Assembly (NCBI GenBank): GCA_021792045.1 | Contig: JAJYVJ010000107.1 | Location: forward strand, 1-5,973 | Length of the DNA: 5,973 nt | DNA from: Thermoplasmata archaeon | GTDB lineage: Archaea; Thermoplasmatota; Thermoplasmata; Thermoplasmatales; Thermoplasmataceae | Direction: 5' to 3' | In this document: positions 660 through 5,973 of the stretch, one piece after another | How positions within the stretch are numbered: position 1 is the stretch's first letter | How the letters are laid out: each line of letters begins with the position of its first letter | The notes under the pieces: generated by a model | The model's input: the letters and a program-made list of their open reading frames with translations, nothing else | What the model was told of the DNA's origin: nothing | Database searches by the model: none | Made by a program: the position numbers and the translations under genes

Positions 660-3146
660 TTGTTTCAGTACGAGGATATAATACTCGGAGAAGGGAAATT
701 TCTCGTGAAGGGACATGGTTTTATAAATCAATATAATCATTCCCCTAAGTTGTTGAAGTCCGATATCATAAAAGGCCATGTAAATGAGCTCGAGCAGAAA
801 TATCGGGAAAAGTTAGAAATAGCCCAATGGCTAAATAGAAAACTTGTTAGCAACCAAGGAAACAAGGGCGTTGCGTTTTTGAATTGGTTCAGCCTCAAGG
901 AAAGCTTCTCGTATGACCTGGTAGTCAAGCTTATAAGGCTAGCAAATTCAAAACCACAAGGTACATTCTTAGATCCATTTTCAGGTGCCGGGACATCTAT
1001 TTTTGCTGCAGCGAGTTACGGAATGAAATCTATCGGAATTGAGTTATTGCCTATCGGTCAATTTTTGCATGAAACCCGATTAGCAGCCATTCTAGTTAAT
1101 ATTGCTGATTTTGAGGAAAACATATTCGAAGTCTTGAAGTATACTAAATCGAACAGGAGCCCAGGGGAGCAGTTTCTCTTCAGACACATACCGATAACCG
1201 CGGGAGCTTTTCCGCAAGACACGGAGAAGTCGATTTCGAGATTTCTCGAATTTGCTGAAGGCGTGAATGACGAATATGTGAGACAACTTTTGAAGTTCGC
1301 TTGTTTTTCTGTGCTTGAAAAGGTAAGCTACACCAGCAAGGACGGCCAATATCTCAGATGGGACATAAGGTCAGGGCGAATTCGAGCTGGAAATTATACT
1401 AAAGCAAAAATATACAACTTCATTGATGCAGTTTCAAACACTCTCACTTCTATGCTTTCAGCAATCAAAGGTAGGGACTTGTTTTTCAGAAATGCGCAGA
1501 CTATTTCAGAAAATACCATGCTTTTGAATGGTTCTGCTTTGGAAAAATTACCAGGCATACCTTCTGAGACTATCGATTTGATAATTTCATCACCTCCTTA
1601 CTGTAACAGATATGATTACACGAGAACATATGCACTTGAACTAGCGTTTCTTGGGATCGGCAATGAGAAAGTTAAAGAGCTCAGGCAGGGACTGTTATCC
1701 TGCACGGTAGAAAATAAGAGCAAGGAACAATGGTTAAGATCCTTTTATCACTCAATTGGCCGGGTTGATACTTACGAGTCTGCTAAAAGAACCTTTGATA
1801 GCAATGGGGCACTCAAATCGATTCTCAATGCATTAAAGCGCTCTATGGAGAAGAAGGAGTTGAACAACCCTGGCATATACCGGATGGTTTACAACTATTT
1901 CTTTGAGCATTCTTTCGTGATTCATGAAATGGCCAGAGTCCTGAAACAAGGAGGAAAGATATTTTACATCAATGACAACGTGAGGTACGACGGTGTCTCA
2001 ATACCAGTCGACTTTATCCTTTCTGATTTTGCAGAGTCAGCGGGACTATCCGTGACAAAGATATATTACTTGAAGAGGGGTAAAGGCAACAGCAGCCAAC
2101 AGATGGGCAAGCACGGTAGGGAGGAATTGAGAAAATGCGTTTATCTATGGGAGAAGAAAGAGGTGGATCAAATGATTGGCTATAGTAGTCACCTTAGAGG
2201 CCCGGAGGGCCTGGTATCAACTTACGAGGAGCAAAGAGCTGGTTTCCTTGCTCTTGCATTGGAAAAGAACAAGATGTCCACGCCGTTCATAGACGAGGCG
2301 AAGGTATTGCGTCAGGCAGCTTCCGCAGCAACTCATCCAAGGGATCTGCTCAATATTGATTCGATCCAACATTCGTTCTTGAAGGCAGCAGGGATCTCGG
2401 ACAAAGCCGAGAAGTTTCTTACGCAAGAAGACAAGAGAAATGCCAAGATCAACCTTATTGAGAAGTTTCTAGAACCCGCTGGACCTCAGTTCGTTGATGA
2501 ACTTGTCTACAGGTTCCTTCTAATCCAAGGAGATGCTCTTGGAGGAATGATTAGGAATATTGGAGGCAAGATGGCGAAGATAAGGTTCATAGACTTGTTG
2601 CGGGCGTCTCTACGAAGTTCTGGAATAAAGGCAGAAGTGATGCTGAGGAAGGCAAACAATTGGTTGGCAGATGAACCAAACTACGTTTCATCCGAAAGCA
2701 TAAAAGCGATGAGATGGCTCATCACTCGAAACCATAATACGCCTAATAACCAAGAGGATAGAAGAACTCTAGTTCTTGATTATACACCAAAATTTATCAA
2801 GAAGAATGTTGATGCATGCCTGTTAAATGGGTATTTCAACACTTTCACAGACGACACACTTGCTTCGCCCTCCTCATACCTAGCGTTGGGAGAACTGAAG
2901 GGAGGGATTGACCCGGCTGGTGCCGACGAACACTGGAAAACTGGAAATACAGCCCTGCAAAGGATAAGAGACGCCTTCAATCAAAAGGGGTATCGCCCCT
3001 TAACATTTTTCGTGGGTGCCGCCATAGAGAAATCTATGGCAGAAGAAATATGGAATCAACTTACCAGTGGAACACTGAGCAATGCTGCTAATCTGACCAA
3101 AGCGTCTCATATGGAGGCACTTTGCCTTTGGATGATTAGCTTATAA
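660..3146 (+). CDS. Fused DNA methyltransferase - AvaI/BsoBI-family restriction endonuclease
   Basis: One 828-residue protein appears to contain both halves of a type II restriction-modification system. Residues about 1-500 are an amino-methyltransferase: a motif X-like WFSLKESFS (76-84), the S-adenosylmethionine-binding DPFSGAGT (105-112), acidic IGIELLP (125-131), and catalytic SPPY (311-314). The serine in SPPY is typical of N4-cytosine enzymes. The roughly 200 residues between motifs I and IV may hold target recognition. The half ends at YLWEKK (495-500). Residues 505-828 are an AvaI/BsoBI-like endonuclease, with the family block ELKGGIDPAGADEHW at 745-759. D718, E745, K747 and H758 correspond to BsoBI Asp212, Glu240, Lys242 and His253; counted from M505 they are 214, 241, 243 and 254. 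Known AvaI and BsoBI cut CYCGRG and are separate polypeptides beside their methylases. TTG at 660 is chosen because an in-frame TAA lies at 642-644 and the first ATG falls after motif I. No frameshift is visible. Actual specificity is inferred. Confidence 0.9.
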   Translation: MFQYEDIILGEGKFLVKGHGFINQYNHSPKLLKSDIIKGHVNELEQKYREKLEIAQWLNRKLVSNQGNKGVAFLNWFSLKESFSYDLVVKLIRLANSKPQGTFLDPFSGAGTSIFAAASYGMKSIGIELLPIGQFLHETRLAAILVNIADFEENIFEVLKYTKSNRSPGEQFLFRHIPITAGAFPQDTEKSISRFLEFAEGVNDEYVRQLLKFACFSVLEKVSYTSKDGQYLRWDIRSGRIRAGNYTKAKIYNFIDAVSNTLTSMLSAIKGRDLFFRNAQTISENTMLLNGSALEKLPGIPSETIDLIISSPPYCNRYDYTRTYALELAFLGIGNEKVKELRQGLLSCTVENKSKEQWLRSFYHSIGRVDTYESAKRTFDSNGALKSILNALKRSMEKKELNNPGIYRMVYNYFFEHSFVIHEMARVLKQGGKIFYINDNVRYDGVSIPVDFILSDFAESAGLSVTKIYYLKRGKGNSSQQMGKHGREELRKCVYLWEKKEVDQMIGYSSHLRGPEGLVSTYEEQRAGFLALALEKNKMSTPFIDEAKVLRQAASAATHPRDLLNIDSIQHSFLKAAGISDKAEKFLTQEDKRNAKINLIEKFLEPAGPQFVDELVYRFLLIQGDALGGMIRNIGGKMAKIRFIDLLRASLRSSGIKAEVMLRKANNWLADEPNYVSSESIKAMRWLITRNHNTPNNQEDRRTLVLDYTPKFIKKNVDACLLNGYFNTFTDDTLASPSSYLALGELKGGIDPAGADEHWKTGNTALQRIRDAFNQKGYRPLTFFVGAAIEKSMAEEIWNQLTSGTLSNAANLTKASHMEALCLWMISL
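789..794. other. CTCGAG: a CYCGRG site inside the restriction-modification gene
   Basis: CTCGAG fits CYCGRG, the site cut by AvaI and BsoBI. It lies in the first 50 codons of the fusion gene. It is the only match I found by eye in the window. It matters only if the enzyme keeps the family specificity, in which case the gene must be methylated to survive. Confidence 0.5.
2160..2174 (+). promoter_or_regulatory. Internal ribosome binding site and ATG at the methyltransferase/endonuclease junction
   Basis: GAGGTG (2160-2165) stands six bases before an in-frame ATG (2172-2174, residue 505). This is a better ribosome binding site than the one before the main TTG start, where only a purine-rich AAAGAAGAAA is seen. 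It falls exactly where the methyltransferase fold should end and a separate AvaI/BsoBI enzyme should begin. It is probably the inherited start of a once separate endonuclease gene and may still work. Confidence 0.55.
2172..3146 (+). CDS. Possible separately translated AvaI/BsoBI-family endonuclease (internal start)
   Basis: This is the same frame as the fusion, read from the ATG at residue 505. It would give a 324-residue protein; BsoBI is 323 and AvaI about 315 residues. The N-terminal YEEQRAGFLALALEKN, the middle LLNIDSIQ and FLEPAG...FVDELVYRFLL, and the catalytic block with D214, E241, K243 and H254 span the whole enzyme, so nothing of the family appears to be missing. The GAGGTG box makes independent translation plausible. 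If it is used, the cell makes both a two-function fusion and free endonuclease, which could set the balance of cutting to methylation. This is an alternative product of the same gene, not an additional locus, and its use is inferred only from sequence. Confidence 0.45.
   Translation: MIGYSSHLRGPEGLVSTYEEQRAGFLALALEKNKMSTPFIDEAKVLRQAASAATHPRDLLNIDSIQHSFLKAAGISDKAEKFLTQEDKRNAKINLIEKFLEPAGPQFVDELVYRFLLIQGDALGGMIRNIGGKMAKIRFIDLLRASLRSSGIKAEVMLRKANNWLADEPNYVSSESIKAMRWLITRNHNTPNNQEDRRTLVLDYTPKFIKKNVDACLLNGYFNTFTDDTLASPSSYLALGELKGGIDPAGADEHWKTGNTALQRIRDAFNQKGYRPLTFFVGAAIEKSMAEEIWNQLTSGTLSNAANLTKASHMEALCLWMISL
2198..2212 (+). other. GC-rich hairpin just after the internal start
   Basis: AGGCCC and GGGCCT form a perfect 6-bp stem with a GGA loop, the most GC-rich short hairpin noticed in this AT-rich gene. 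It starts 24 bases after the internal ATG, where mRNA structure can slow ribosomes and affect initiation. It encodes the start of the endonuclease region (RGPEGL), so it could be coincidence. Confidence 0.3.
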
Positions 3147-3193
3147 TATAAAATTTTAAAAAAAAAGTATGCCGAAAGTAACTTGGAACGCCT

Positions 3194-3217
3194 GAAAAAA
3201 ATCCCACGATTTTTATC
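3194..3217. terminator. A/T-stem hairpin after the restriction-modification gene, possible terminator
   Basis: GAAAAAAATC and GATTTTTATC pair over ten positions with one mismatch around a CCAC loop, 48 bases past the TAA at 3144-3146. The T-run lies inside the stem, so the hairpin is close to symmetrical and could act in both directions. The low GC content makes it a weak candidate. Confidence 0.3.
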
Positions 3218-3235
3218 TCAAAGAGGAGTCAGGAA

Positions 3236-3810
3236 ATGCAATATATCGGGTTTCAATCAAGCAGATGTAAGATAACTGGAGAATGGAAAAGGAAATCTCA
3301 AATGCTCTTGGGGTTTTTCTCCTATCTGGAATTCCACTTTTTACAGATACGGTTCTTTGGACTACGACCTTGTAGAGGAATCAATAACTCAAGCTAGGGC
3401 TGAGTTAGACCTGTTTAGAAAAAGAAATCTTCTTGCATATGAACAGACAGATAGGGACAACATAAAAGCCATATATGGTAATTTTCTCCGCTCGATCAGA
3501 AGTAAAGGGAAAGCCGGTACAAAGAATGATATCCCACAGCCACGTATCTTTTGGAAAAGCGCTTCATCTGTTATGCCCTTCTTTCTTTTACTTATGGGAC
3601 AAAAGGATTGTAAAATCTTACGATTGTTTGTGGTGGTCAAGTACTTAGAGTTTTGACAACTATTGGAAATTCATGATAATGATTAGGTATCAAACTTCCA
3701 ACTTGATCGCGGGTCCTACGAAACGTTCAGAACTAAGTGGGTTGAACACTCTAAAATTGATAGTTGGATATAACCGAGCTAGATTCACTTTTTGCTTAAG
3801 CACTATCTGA
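3236..3810 (+). pseudogene. Decayed gene for a protein with a P-x-F..WD signature (frameshifts and in-frame stop)
   Basis: A gene-like start (ATG 3236-3238 preceded by AGGAG with seven bases between) opens a frame that stops at 3395-3397. A second frame, open from about 3276, carries coding-looking sequence (EESITQARAELDLFRKRNLLAYE, given here in part) and FWKSASSVMPFF. Around 3582-3588, in a T-rich run, the sense jumps to a third frame reading FYLWDKRIVKSYD. That frame hits TAG at 3646-3648, then stays open through DNYWKFM and LKLIVGYNRARFT to TGA at 3808-3810. From memory, proteins with 'KaLHLl.P..F..WD..Ia' followed by 'Y..Fm' and 'KLIDEYNw..FT' exist as uncharacterised families. The order and spacing here match that, with the EYN part changed to GYN. 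The N-terminal join is uncertain. Function is unknown. The 99-codon ORF at 3357-3656 is only a piece of this. Confidence 0.6.
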
Positions 3811-3857
3811 TGATTTACAGTGATAAAATAAATATAGGTGGGAGAAGATACAATTAA

Positions 3858-4574
3858 ATGGGAGTCAGAGTATCTGTAACTGTTAAACTTCCAGGAGGAA
3901 GCTTGGCATCAGGTTCAGACATTTCTCTTGTTAACAGAAACGCAAAATTTAAGGACTCACAGAACTGGAATGGTACGGCCGACAGTGAGGGAAATTGTAT
4001 TTGGGAAGAAATGGATAGTGGTACTTTTGGCCTTGGGGATATATACGACTTTCAGGCCAGCTTCACTGATCCAAGTAACGGTAAATCTTATATCGGACAC
4101 AAAACGGAACGAATCAAGAAAGATCAGAATGTTACAATATACCTGAGAGAAGCTCACATGGGTGAAACTTTTGAACTCAAAATTAGCAAGGACGATTTAA
4201 CTGCAGTTTCAAAACTTTCTGGCGGAGAAGAGATTCTGTCGGTGATTAGAGAGCTTTCTGTAACAACCAAAGATAAGTTAAGTCACGCATCGGTAATGCT
4301 TGAATCTTATATTGTTGAATCATTCATTAGAAATAGGCTTCACGACAAAGGTCTCTGGAAAGATAATTTTGAAAAAATTTCACTTGGAATGTTGCTGGAG
4401 AAAGCCGAAGTAAAGGCAATTCTGGGTGGCACCCTTCTTAGAAGAATAAGCATTCTAAACGAACTCAGAACAGCAGCAGTACATCCTAAGGGTGTTGAAA
4501 CGTATTTTGAAGAGGCTTCAATCGGTTTGGGTCTAATTAGAGAACTGATAAGGGACTGGTTCAGGAATGCTTAA
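3858..4574 (+). CDS. Beta-sandwich domain plus HEPN-like helical domain protein
   Basis: This 238-residue protein has no signal peptide or membrane segment and should be cytosolic. Residues about 3-97 look like a small beta-sandwich of the transthyretin/carboxypeptidase-regulatory type: alternating VSVTVKLPGG, a DSEGNCIWEEM turn (42-52), a DIYDFQASF strand, and a closing VTIYL. Residues about 125-238 are helical and end in ILNELRTAAVHPKG. R204 and H209 there give the R-x4-H motif of HEPN ribonucleases and of the related DUF4145-like domains. HEPN proteins are often RNA-cleaving effectors in toxin-antitoxin and phage-defence loci, but some are inactive. It is the first gene of a three-gene run, 50 bases before the SIR2 gene. 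A GGTGGGAG box ends 14 bases before the ATG, a rather long spacing. The beta domain may sense or bind a partner; this is inference. The exact family is not recognised. Confidence 0.75.
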   Translation: MGVRVSVTVKLPGGSLASGSDISLVNRNAKFKDSQNWNGTADSEGNCIWEEMDSGTFGLGDIYDFQASFTDPSNGKSYIGHKTERIKKDQNVTIYLREAHMGETFELKISKDDLTAVSKLSGGEEILSVIRELSVTTKDKLSHASVMLESYIVESFIRNRLHDKGLWKDNFEKISLGMLLEKAEVKAILGGTLLRRISILNELRTAAVHPKGVETYFEEASIGLGLIRELIRDWFRNA

Positions 4575-4624: not shown

Positions 4625-5719
4625 ATGACTAAAAAGATTGTATATCTTATCGGGGCTGGCGCGACCGAAGGAGCAGCAAGGTTCCACGGATATGAAAAAA
4701 GCCTTTTGATGGATGGTCTACTGGACGATATTTCTGTTCTCTTATCCGGAAAAAGAGGAAAGGACATGGAGTGGGCAAGAAATCAACTCGCCAATGGAGC
4801 TAACTTAGAGAGACTGGTTTCACTTTATGAATATTCAGGTACCTCAAAACACATAAGAATCGCAAAGGCACTAAGAGATGCTTTCAGGATCTCACTTGAA
4901 AATAGAATAGCGGAAATTGAGAATGACTTTACTCCTGAATTATTTGTTGCACTTTTGGACATGCACAGGGTTAGGAGAATTAATGAAGAATTGACTGCTA
5001 TATTCACCACCAACTACGAAGACCTGTTGGAGCGATCAATTTTCAAGATTTATGGGAAAGTGAGTTACCCTATTCAGATTACGTCAGTTAGACAAACACT
5101 ACGGTCATCAACAACTGTACCTTTTTTCATTTTGAAACTGCACGGCTCATTTAACTGGAAAAGTGCTTATCCAATATTCCGTACAATGCCGCACGACAGA
5201 AGTAACGATAGCCTCTGGATACCTCCCGGCGTTGTGAAACGAAAAGAGGCGTATCCATTCAATATATTGTGGGGAAGAGCTAAAGAACTCCTTGACTGTG
5301 ATGTCTTAAGAATTGTTGGCTCTTCTCTTAGCCAGAATGACTGGGATTTAGTAGCCCTAATCTCTATTGCACAGGGACTGAGTACTAGTTCAAAACGACC
5401 TTTGAGAATAGAGTTTATAAACTCACTGGAAGCTAAAAATGAAATAGCTGGAACTCATCGTTATTTGGATATTGTTGGGATGGACGAAATTCCAGAAATT
5501 AAGGATTACGTCAAGAAGACTTATTATCCTTTAGATGAGCCTATTGATGATGATAAGCTTCAAGAAGCAGTAAAAGATGTGTTATCAAAAGGAAATATTT
5601 TTGAGCTATGGCTAAGAGCAAAGGGGGAGAAAATGTTTAATGACGGTTTACCTCTGGATACGGATTCTTCGGACTTCAAAGATTTCATAATTACCGGAAT
5701 GAAGGGTGGAGCTAATTGA
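4625..5719 (+). CDS. SIR2-family protein, probable NAD-hydrolysing defence effector
   Basis: This 364-residue protein shows the SIR2_2-type motif series in order: nucleotide-binding GAGAT (10-14), TTNYEDLLE with N130 (128-136), KLHGS with H173 (171-175), WIPPGVVK (198-205), and IVGSSLSQND (230-239). Asn and His of the second and third motifs are the residues needed for NAD cleavage in defence SIR2 proteins (Thoeris, DSR, SIR2-Argonaute families). All are intact, so activity is likely. Residues about 285-364 form a C-terminal acidic and helical tail (NIFELWLRAKGEKMF) with no extra domain recognised. No zinc-binding cysteine set of protein deacetylases is present, which argues against a classical sirtuin. 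A GAGTGGGA box lies before the ATG. The stop overlaps the next start. It probably depletes NAD when triggered by its neighbours; the trigger is unknown. Confidence 0.9.
   Translation: MTKKIVYLIGAGATEGAARFHGYEKSLLMDGLLDDISVLLSGKRGKDMEWARNQLANGANLERLVSLYEYSGTSKHIRIAKALRDAFRISLENRIAEIENDFTPELFVALLDMHRVRRINEELTAIFTTNYEDLLERSIFKIYGKVSYPIQITSVRQTLRSSTTVPFFILKLHGSFNWKSAYPIFRTMPHDRSNDSLWIPPGVVKRKEAYPFNILWGRAKELLDCDVLRIVGSSLSQNDWDLVALISIAQGLSTSSKRPLRIEFINSLEAKNEIAGTHRYLDIVGMDEIPEIKDYVKKTYYPLDEPIDDDKLQEAVKDVLSKGNIFELWLRAKGEKMFNDGLPLDTDSSDFKDFIITGMKGGAN
5704..5718 (+). promoter_or_regulatory. Ribosome binding site and TTG start overlapping the SIR2 stop
   Basis: GGGTGGAG (5704-5711) precedes TTG (5716-5718), and the SIR2 stop TGA (5717-5719) overlaps it as TTGA. 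This arrangement suits translational coupling and decides the start of the DUF262 gene, since no ATG occurs until the codon 19 position inside the domain. Confidence 0.65.
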
Positions 5720-5973
5720 AAAAGGACAATAAGAAATGGAAAATTAGAGAATTTATTGATAAAATAGGAATGATTTCTTTCCCTGAGTATCAACGCGAAC
5801 CGAATGTGTGGGATTTAAAAAAGCGACAGAGATTAATTGATTCCATACTTAGGGGAATTGATATTTCATCGATATACCTGTATCGAAATGAAGATAATTC
5901 TTACGACTGCGTCGATGGCCGTCAGAGAATTACTGCGATTCTATCTTATGCTAACAAAAATGCAGCAGATGAT
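5716..5973 (+). CDS. DUF262 (GmrSD/ParB-like) protein, N-terminal 86 codons, cut by window end
   Basis: The visible part carries the opening of a DUF262 domain: FPEYQREPNVWD (22-33), RQRLIDSILRGIDISSIYLY (37-56) and the hallmark DGRQR (67-71), which corresponds to the family's DGQQR. DUF262 forms the N-terminal part of GmrS/GmrD type IV restriction enzymes, which bind nucleotides and cut modified DNA, and it occurs in many other defence proteins. The gene runs off the edge, so the C-terminal partner (for example DUF1524 HNH, or another effector) cannot be seen. That partner would decide whether this is a GmrSD enzyme or a sensor for the SIR2 protein. The start is TTG, overlapping the SIR2 stop, which places both in one transcript. 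Fold assignment is strong; function is inferred. Confidence 0.85.
   Translation, partial: MKKDNKKWKIREFIDKIGMISFPEYQREPNVWDLKKRQRLIDSILRGIDISSIYLYRNEDNSYDCVDGRQRITAILSYANKNAADD

Follow-up and report, generated by a model that had tools for sequence, protein, structure and literature searches.

The AvaI and BsoBI restriction-modification systems each consist of two separate proteins, with the methyltransferase gene (M) lying before the endonuclease gene (R) in AvaI and R lying before M in BsoBI. A 5,973-nucleotide stretch of DNA from a Thermoplasmata archaeon (contig JAJYVJ010000107.1; hereafter, the window) raises the question of whether such a pair can also exist in nature as one working chain. 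Positions 660 to 3146 of its plus strand form one open frame of 828 codons without internal stops, and the encoded chain runs from an amino-methyltransferase (residues ~42 to 499) through a four-residue join into an AvaI/BsoBI endonuclease (residues 508 to 828), with both parts complete. The window thus holds as one chain what the known AvaI/BsoBI systems hold as two proteins of the same endonuclease family (PF09194) and the same methyltransferase profile (PDLC03224). In our judgment, the locus is probably a natural single-chain orthodox type IIP system of the AvaI/BsoBI family, born by the loss of a stop codon, in which both halves work and a free endonuclease is likely made as well. The features on which this reading draws are as follows.

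660..3146, plus strand: single open reading frame (ORF), methyltransferase-endonuclease fusion (828 aa from TTG 660; 813 aa with the GTG 705 start)
705..707, plus strand: alternative start GTG (Shine-Dalgarno [SD]-like dG -6.6; residues 1 to 31 also disordered in the structure model)
783..2156, plus strand: methyltransferase domain, residues 42 to 499 (PADLOC MTase_II PDLC03224, 445 bits)
972..995, plus strand: S-adenosylmethionine (SAM)-binding motif DPFSGAGT, residues 105 to 112 (D105, P106, F107, G109, and T112 invariant in 9 aligned sequences)
1590..1601, plus strand: catalytic motif SPPY, residues 311 to 314 (invariant in 9 aligned sequences)
2157..2165, plus strand: SD-like AAAGAGGTG preceding an internal ATG (dG -10.5)
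2160..2171, plus strand: interdomain join E501-V502-D503-Q504 (pLDDT <50 at residues 503 to 505)
2172..2174, plus strand: internal ATG (M505), presumably where the ancestral endonuclease began or close to it, judging from stand-alone endonuclease N termini
2181..3143, plus strand: AvaI/BsoBI endonuclease domain, residues 508 to 828 (Pfam Endonuc-BsobI PF09194, 381.5 bits, profile positions 1 to 313 of 313)
2811..2813, plus strand: catalytic D718, equivalent to BsoBI D212 (BsoBI alignment; invariant in 20 aligned endonucleases)
2892..2900, plus strand: catalytic E745 and K747, equivalent to BsoBI E240 and K242 (same alignment; invariant in the 20)
2931..2933, plus strand: catalytic H758, equivalent to BsoBI H253 (same alignment; invariant in the 20)

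A reading made from the sequence only had proposed that a complete methyltransferase and a complete BsoBI-type endonuclease share one frame with almost no linker. The ORF, Pfam, PADLOC, and BsoBI alignment agree on the two complete parts, and the linker indeed amounts to four residues. These residues, E501 to Q504, are all that separates the end point of stand-alone methyltransferases from M505; the N termini of stand-alone endonucleases fall at most a few residues before or after M505. Among 13 close stand-alone methyltransferases, the C terminus reads WEKL in 8 and WEKK in 1 and is similar in the remainder. A structure model of the fused chain reached a pTM of 0.65, with the relative placement of the domains unsure. 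The true start of the ORF is uncertain between TTG 660, which lacks an SD-like sequence (dG -0.2), and GTG 705, which has one; the N termini of close relatives fall near window residues 25 to 33.

Elsewhere in the window, positions 4625 to 5719 encode a SIR2-like protein (PF13289, with weak matches to SIR2/Dsr2 defense profiles) behind a gene for 238 aa at 3858 to 4574, and the two possibly form a further defense operon. Positions 5716 to 5973 hold the start of a GmrSD_N-type protein (PADLOC NsnA profile, 6e-20) that is cut by the window end, and a fragment at the left edge (3 to 266) has weak DUF1016_N and PDC-S02 matches; together with the genes on the right side, this fragment gives the region the look of a defense island. 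The ~700 bases between the fusion and these genes (3147 to 3857) are without a recognizable gene, including a 99-aa ORF at 3357 to 3656 that has no Pfam match.

The methyltransferase half matches profile PDLC03224 and carries the DPFxGxGT and SPPY motifs of the amino-methyltransferases associated with AvaI/BsoBI, with motif I at residue 105, motif IV at residue 311, and ~200 residues between them. AvaI/BsoBI systems target CYCGRG and methylate cytosine at N4. Taken with the SPPY motif and with weak matches to Deinococcus radiodurans plasmid methyltransferases (23%) and to a Haloarcula virus gene annotated as an N4-cytosine methyltransferase (21.6%), these family properties suggest that the window enzyme is of the cytosine N4 type; by family membership, the target of the system would be CYCGRG. 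This site occurs once in the window against 2.6 expected, numbers too small to use. An m4C enzyme is reported from D. radiodurans in an excerpt of PMC10855626 and may be encoded by a gene other than the plasmid match, and an excerpt of PMC9516812 lists CYCGRG among the cytosine-methylated motifs of marine viral genomes. In the same family, methyltransferases P0018, P0020, P0024, P0026 to P0029, P0031 to P0034, and P0036 (584 to 586 aa) form a subgroup that is ~115 residues longer; in P0020, the sole member aligned, the surplus stretch is N-terminal.

The endonuclease half is placed in the AvaI/BsoBI family by the full-length PF09194 match, the catalytic residues, and the BsoBI fold; PADLOC REase_II PDLC03415 covers residues 505 to 827 (326 bits), and the alignment with BsoBI (1dc1) covers residues 508 to 827 (322 bits). 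The four residues initially picked out as a BsoBI-like active site (D718, E745, K747, and H758) pair with their expected counterparts, as listed above. Counterparts of BsoBI K81 and D246, which we take to be base-contacting residues, are K582 and D751, also invariant in the 20 sequences. The fold predicts that the enzyme would cut inside a palindromic site.

Whether this half is still under full constraint has to be asked because its end branch in the tree is long (0.46, versus 0.15 for the neighboring P0124), so that its function may be shifting or its constraint relaxing. A fused endonuclease in decay, the fusion being a step toward losing restriction while keeping the methyltransferase, would account for such a branch beside an unremarkable methyltransferase branch of 0.27. 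However, all four catalytic residues are kept, and the frame stays open to the native endonuclease C terminus. When each row of the alignments was left out in turn and its broken near-invariant columns were counted, the window broke 2 of 73 endonuclease columns, both conservatively (T to S and M to I), and 0 of 88 methyltransferase columns; the median across rows was 0, and the worst endonuclease rows broke 4. We therefore regard decay as improbable, and an active endonuclease within a single-chain system remains our preferred reading.

A different concern is that a sequencing or assembly error masks a stop codon between two genes. L001 (Thermoplasmata archaeon TL1-4.bin52; 63% identity in M and 61% in R), the closest relative among the genomes, has exactly one stop codon at the same place. 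Its join reads TGG GAG AAG GTG TAG ATG (i.e., M-TAG-ATG-R in one frame), and that of the window reads TGG GAG AAG AAA GAG GTG GAT CAA ATG, a difference of more than one base. We searched with the endonuclease part for proteins of 455 to 1449 aa, and 4 of 7993 scored candidates passed (P0001 to P0004). P0001, from another contig (5274 bp), differs from the window protein only at residues 279 and 723 and has the same junction, and its cluster has 5 member sequences. P0002 (866 aa) and P0003 (794 aa) are methyltransferase-endonuclease fusions whose endonucleases are 49% and 44% identical to that of the window, and a further natural fusion, L021, from a Leptolyngbyaceae cyanobacterium (CRU_2_3 MAG), shares 80% (M) and 87% (R) identity with P0002. 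The linkers of P0002, P0003, and L021 all differ from that of the window. Because P0001 has the same junction and the divergent fusions have other linkers, a base-calling accident is unlikely; the sequence-only reading had named such an error as one of two things that would overturn it, and this objection is much weakened, to the point that we give it hardly any weight.

The Pfam comparison that the same reading had called for finds PF09194 over residues 508 to 828. Both domains stand together in P0001, P0002, P0003, and L021. The last of these was missed by the protein search, and the database counts of fusions are therefore lower bounds. The fourth candidate, P0004 (Chloroflexi GY796_04170), was not counted as a fusion, having an endonuclease and a PfkB-like part and no methyltransferase match. 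Its BsoBI-type endonuclease seems to be without a middle stretch and to be joined to a PfkB-like kinase, and the gene may be degenerate or misassembled. Among annotated plasmid records, 28 matched the whole protein; 3 did so with at least 80% cover, each annotated as two genes, and the remaining 25 matched through the methyltransferase part, as did 2 phage records.

To place these fusions among their relatives, loci were collected by a GTDB genome scan with A2 (450 relatives confirmed, 80 kept) and from viral contigs (3 loci, none of them fused), giving 83 in total; a second scan, with A1, gave one locus, whose contig already carries one of the three. One of the 83 is fused (L021), one has R before M (L055), and 81 have a separate R behind M on the same strand, consistent with the earlier statement that the known enzymes of this family are stand-alone. 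The M-then-R order of the window is that of these 81 loci and of AvaI. The 81 include two loci with the M end only (L017 and L039), one with a distant methyltransferase (L077; 31% identity), three with an internal stop in one gene (L025, L032, and L081), and two with identical domain sequences (L082 and L083). The junctions are tight: with starts placed by script, the start of R precedes the end of the M stop codon by 16 bases in 25 of the 83 loci, by 1 base in 15, and by 4 bases in 7. The frame of R relative to M is 0 in 11 (including L021 and the reversed L055), 1 in 15, and 2 in 57. In L009, L041, L072, L082, and L083, M lies upstream and meets or overlaps R.

Whole-genome samples were also examined, with only two or three candidate places scored per genome in most genomes. 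In the phylum of L001 (292 genomes), one genome has M and R, with a single TAG between them. In the class of L021 (291 genomes), the only fusion among the matches listed is in the genome of L021 itself; 11 further junctions read in this class all have a stop codon, and 5 of them are in frame with R. No BsoBI fusion was found among matches with E values up to 1e-50 in 400 genomes of the phylum of L067, 392 of that of L034, and 392 of that of L058. Five cyanobacterial loci with open frames of 805 to 814 aa (L105, L107, L109, L110, and L111) were rejected as fusions, each having one in-frame TAA. These samples show that the fusion is rare and that its precursor arrangement, M-stop-R in one frame, is not. 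The fusion is rare but not unique in the AvaI/BsoBI family.

Since L001 has M and R in one frame with a TAG between them, the simplest route to the window is likely to have been the loss of a stop codon with the gain of a few bases. Trees were built from 118 endonucleases (the window, P0002, P0003, the loci, and 28 of the 120 collected proteins) and from 119 methyltransferases (the same sources with 31 collected proteins; the short rows L017 and L039 dropped). On both trees, the fused label needs three changes, i.e., one for the window, one for P0002 with L021 (100*), and one for P0003; if only starred branches are counted, at least two changes remain necessary on the R tree and at least three on the M tree. 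One ancestral fusion, with all four as one clade, was rejected by AU tests (p 0.00038 for R and 1.4e-95 for M), with the caveat that the group was picked by trait after the trees had been viewed; the trees were also built quickly, and some of their branches are long. Parsimony favors three fusion events, which suggests that separate origins are more likely than one. Parsimony does not distinguish gain from loss of fusion; a single old gain would need repeated resplitting, with stop and start restored each time.

A comparable fusion involves another endonuclease family. Positions 1276 to 3936 of L121, from a genome of the phylum of L067, combine in one frame of 887 codons another member of the window's methyltransferase family (PDLC03224, 444 bits) with an XcyI-type endonuclease (PF09571, 9.8e-19). 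L123, from the same class and 62% identical to this fusion, has both parts in frame but separated by one TAA. The fused form was found in 1 of 47 genomes searched in its class, and the case is that of one assembly.

The internal ATG at 2172 bears on what the window gene produces. When duplexes with the 16S tail are calculated, its SD-like site ranks second of 283 start-like plus-strand codons and first of 48 in-frame starts of the ORF and is among the best 0.9% of 2456 positions. The corresponding dG values are -7.6 for the separate L001 endonuclease, -5.8 for the XcyI fusion, and -0.1 for the internal ATG of L021. Because the strongest in-frame SD-like start sits here, the gene may yield a free endonuclease in addition to the single chain. 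This dual-product reading does not extend to L021, whose internal ATG lacks an SD-like sequence. P0002 has no methionine in its interdomain linker and so looks bound to the single-chain form, barring a GTG or TTG start.

The same start would also suit a system that works as two proteins, with restriction left to the product of internal initiation at ATG 2172 while the long chain carries an idle, tolerated endonuclease tail. The separate L001 endonuclease starts at about the same place, and a recent fusion is conceivable, given that the closest relatives recovered are separate proteins. Against this, the SD-like sequence may be vestigial or may owe part of its strength to purine-rich Glu and Lys codons, and the P0002 and L021 fusions suggest that a single chain can stand on its own. 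We thus consider the two-protein explanation unlikely, if still to be reckoned with, and favor a single chain in which both halves work.

Comparison with known single-chain enzymes further defines the window protein. Like the type IIC/IIG enzymes MmeI, BpuSI, TspGWI, and TaqII, it has methyltransferase and endonuclease in one polypeptide. Those enzymes mostly have an N-terminal nuclease and cut at a distance, whereas the window chain puts M first and ends in a whole type IIP endonuclease. The usual, though not universal, type IIC order described in excerpts of PMC4081073 is an N-terminal nuclease followed by a gamma-class methyltransferase, with cutting away from the site; the order in the window is the reverse. 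The earlier label "type IIC-like" holds only for the union of both domains in one ORF, since the BsoBI fold predicts cutting inside the site. The same source describes gene fusion as frequent among type II enzymes and includes BtgZI, which resembles the window in joining an N-terminal methyltransferase (alpha class) to a C-terminal PD-D/EXK nuclease in one chain. However, BtgZI cuts 10/14 outside GCGATG with a variant nuclease (Q for E), whereas cutting inside a palindrome is expected of the BsoBI fold.

A further parallel is engineered RM.Eco29kI, a type IIP pair whose overlapping stop and start codons were replaced to give one chain that retained both activities (PMC3039593, in part). It is man-made, with R first, a GIY-YIG nuclease, and an m5C methyltransferase, whereas the window fusion is natural, with M first. 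According to the same excerpts, the Eco29kI fusion retained ~80% of methyltransferase and 33% of endonuclease activity, and restricted phage 100-fold versus 10,000-fold for the wild type, but although it cleaved DNA, its methylation in vitro was low, which speaks somewhat against the single-chain reading; the subtype P entries of their table are engineered RM.Eco29kI and HaeIV, which cuts outside a bipartite site. Natural C-REase fusions likewise join a type IIP endonuclease to the product of a neighboring gene, although that partner is a controller protein rather than a methyltransferase (PMC3850674, in part); TspGWI, TspDTI, BpuSI, and engineered Eco29kI are cited there as methyltransferase-endonuclease fusions. 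In the accessible portions of this literature, natural single chains of M and R cut outside their sites, and the one that cuts within a palindrome is the engineered Eco29kI. No natural type IIP methyltransferase-endonuclease fusion was found in these portions, including those of PMC6158711 and PMC3936762 (subscription journals and REBASE being outside the scope); excerpts of PMC7325993 name a Thermococcus fusion protein, and those of PMC8112702 concern other Ava enzymes.

How a tethered pair might operate can be outlined from the family. BsoBI closes around DNA as a dimer. In the window chain, the methyltransferase half would act as a monomer and protect host DNA once the chain is made, and the endonuclease half, as in BsoBI, would cut only after two chains have dimerized around DNA, so that assembly would delay restriction. 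The proposal in excerpts of PMC12707154 that type IIC monomers modify without restricting, with restriction delayed until dimers form, fits a BsoBI nuclease that closes as a dimer. The four-residue join might hinder encirclement of the BsoBI type. Free endonuclease is probably translated from ATG 2172 as well, given the strong ribosome-binding-like sequence retained there, and would be able to mix with the fused chain.

The sequences show both domains complete with their key residues intact, and the trees make several separate fusions in the family more likely than one. We tentatively extend this to the view, which we judge slightly less likely than not, that type IIP pairs repeatedly become natural single chains by the loss of one stop codon, in at least two endonuclease families (BsoBI and XcyI), and that the window gene has two products (i.e., a fused M-R chain and a free endonuclease), with mixed dimers and a switch from protection to restriction timed by expression. 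That single-chain enzymes can evolve from restriction and modification genes joined head to tail was proposed from Eco29kI (PMC3039593, in part). The fusion loci look like natural cases of this proposal, with sister pairs that are still split by one in-frame stop. They provide ready-made single chains for type IIP enzymes and make it testable how a cell survives a protector and a cutter tethered 1:1.
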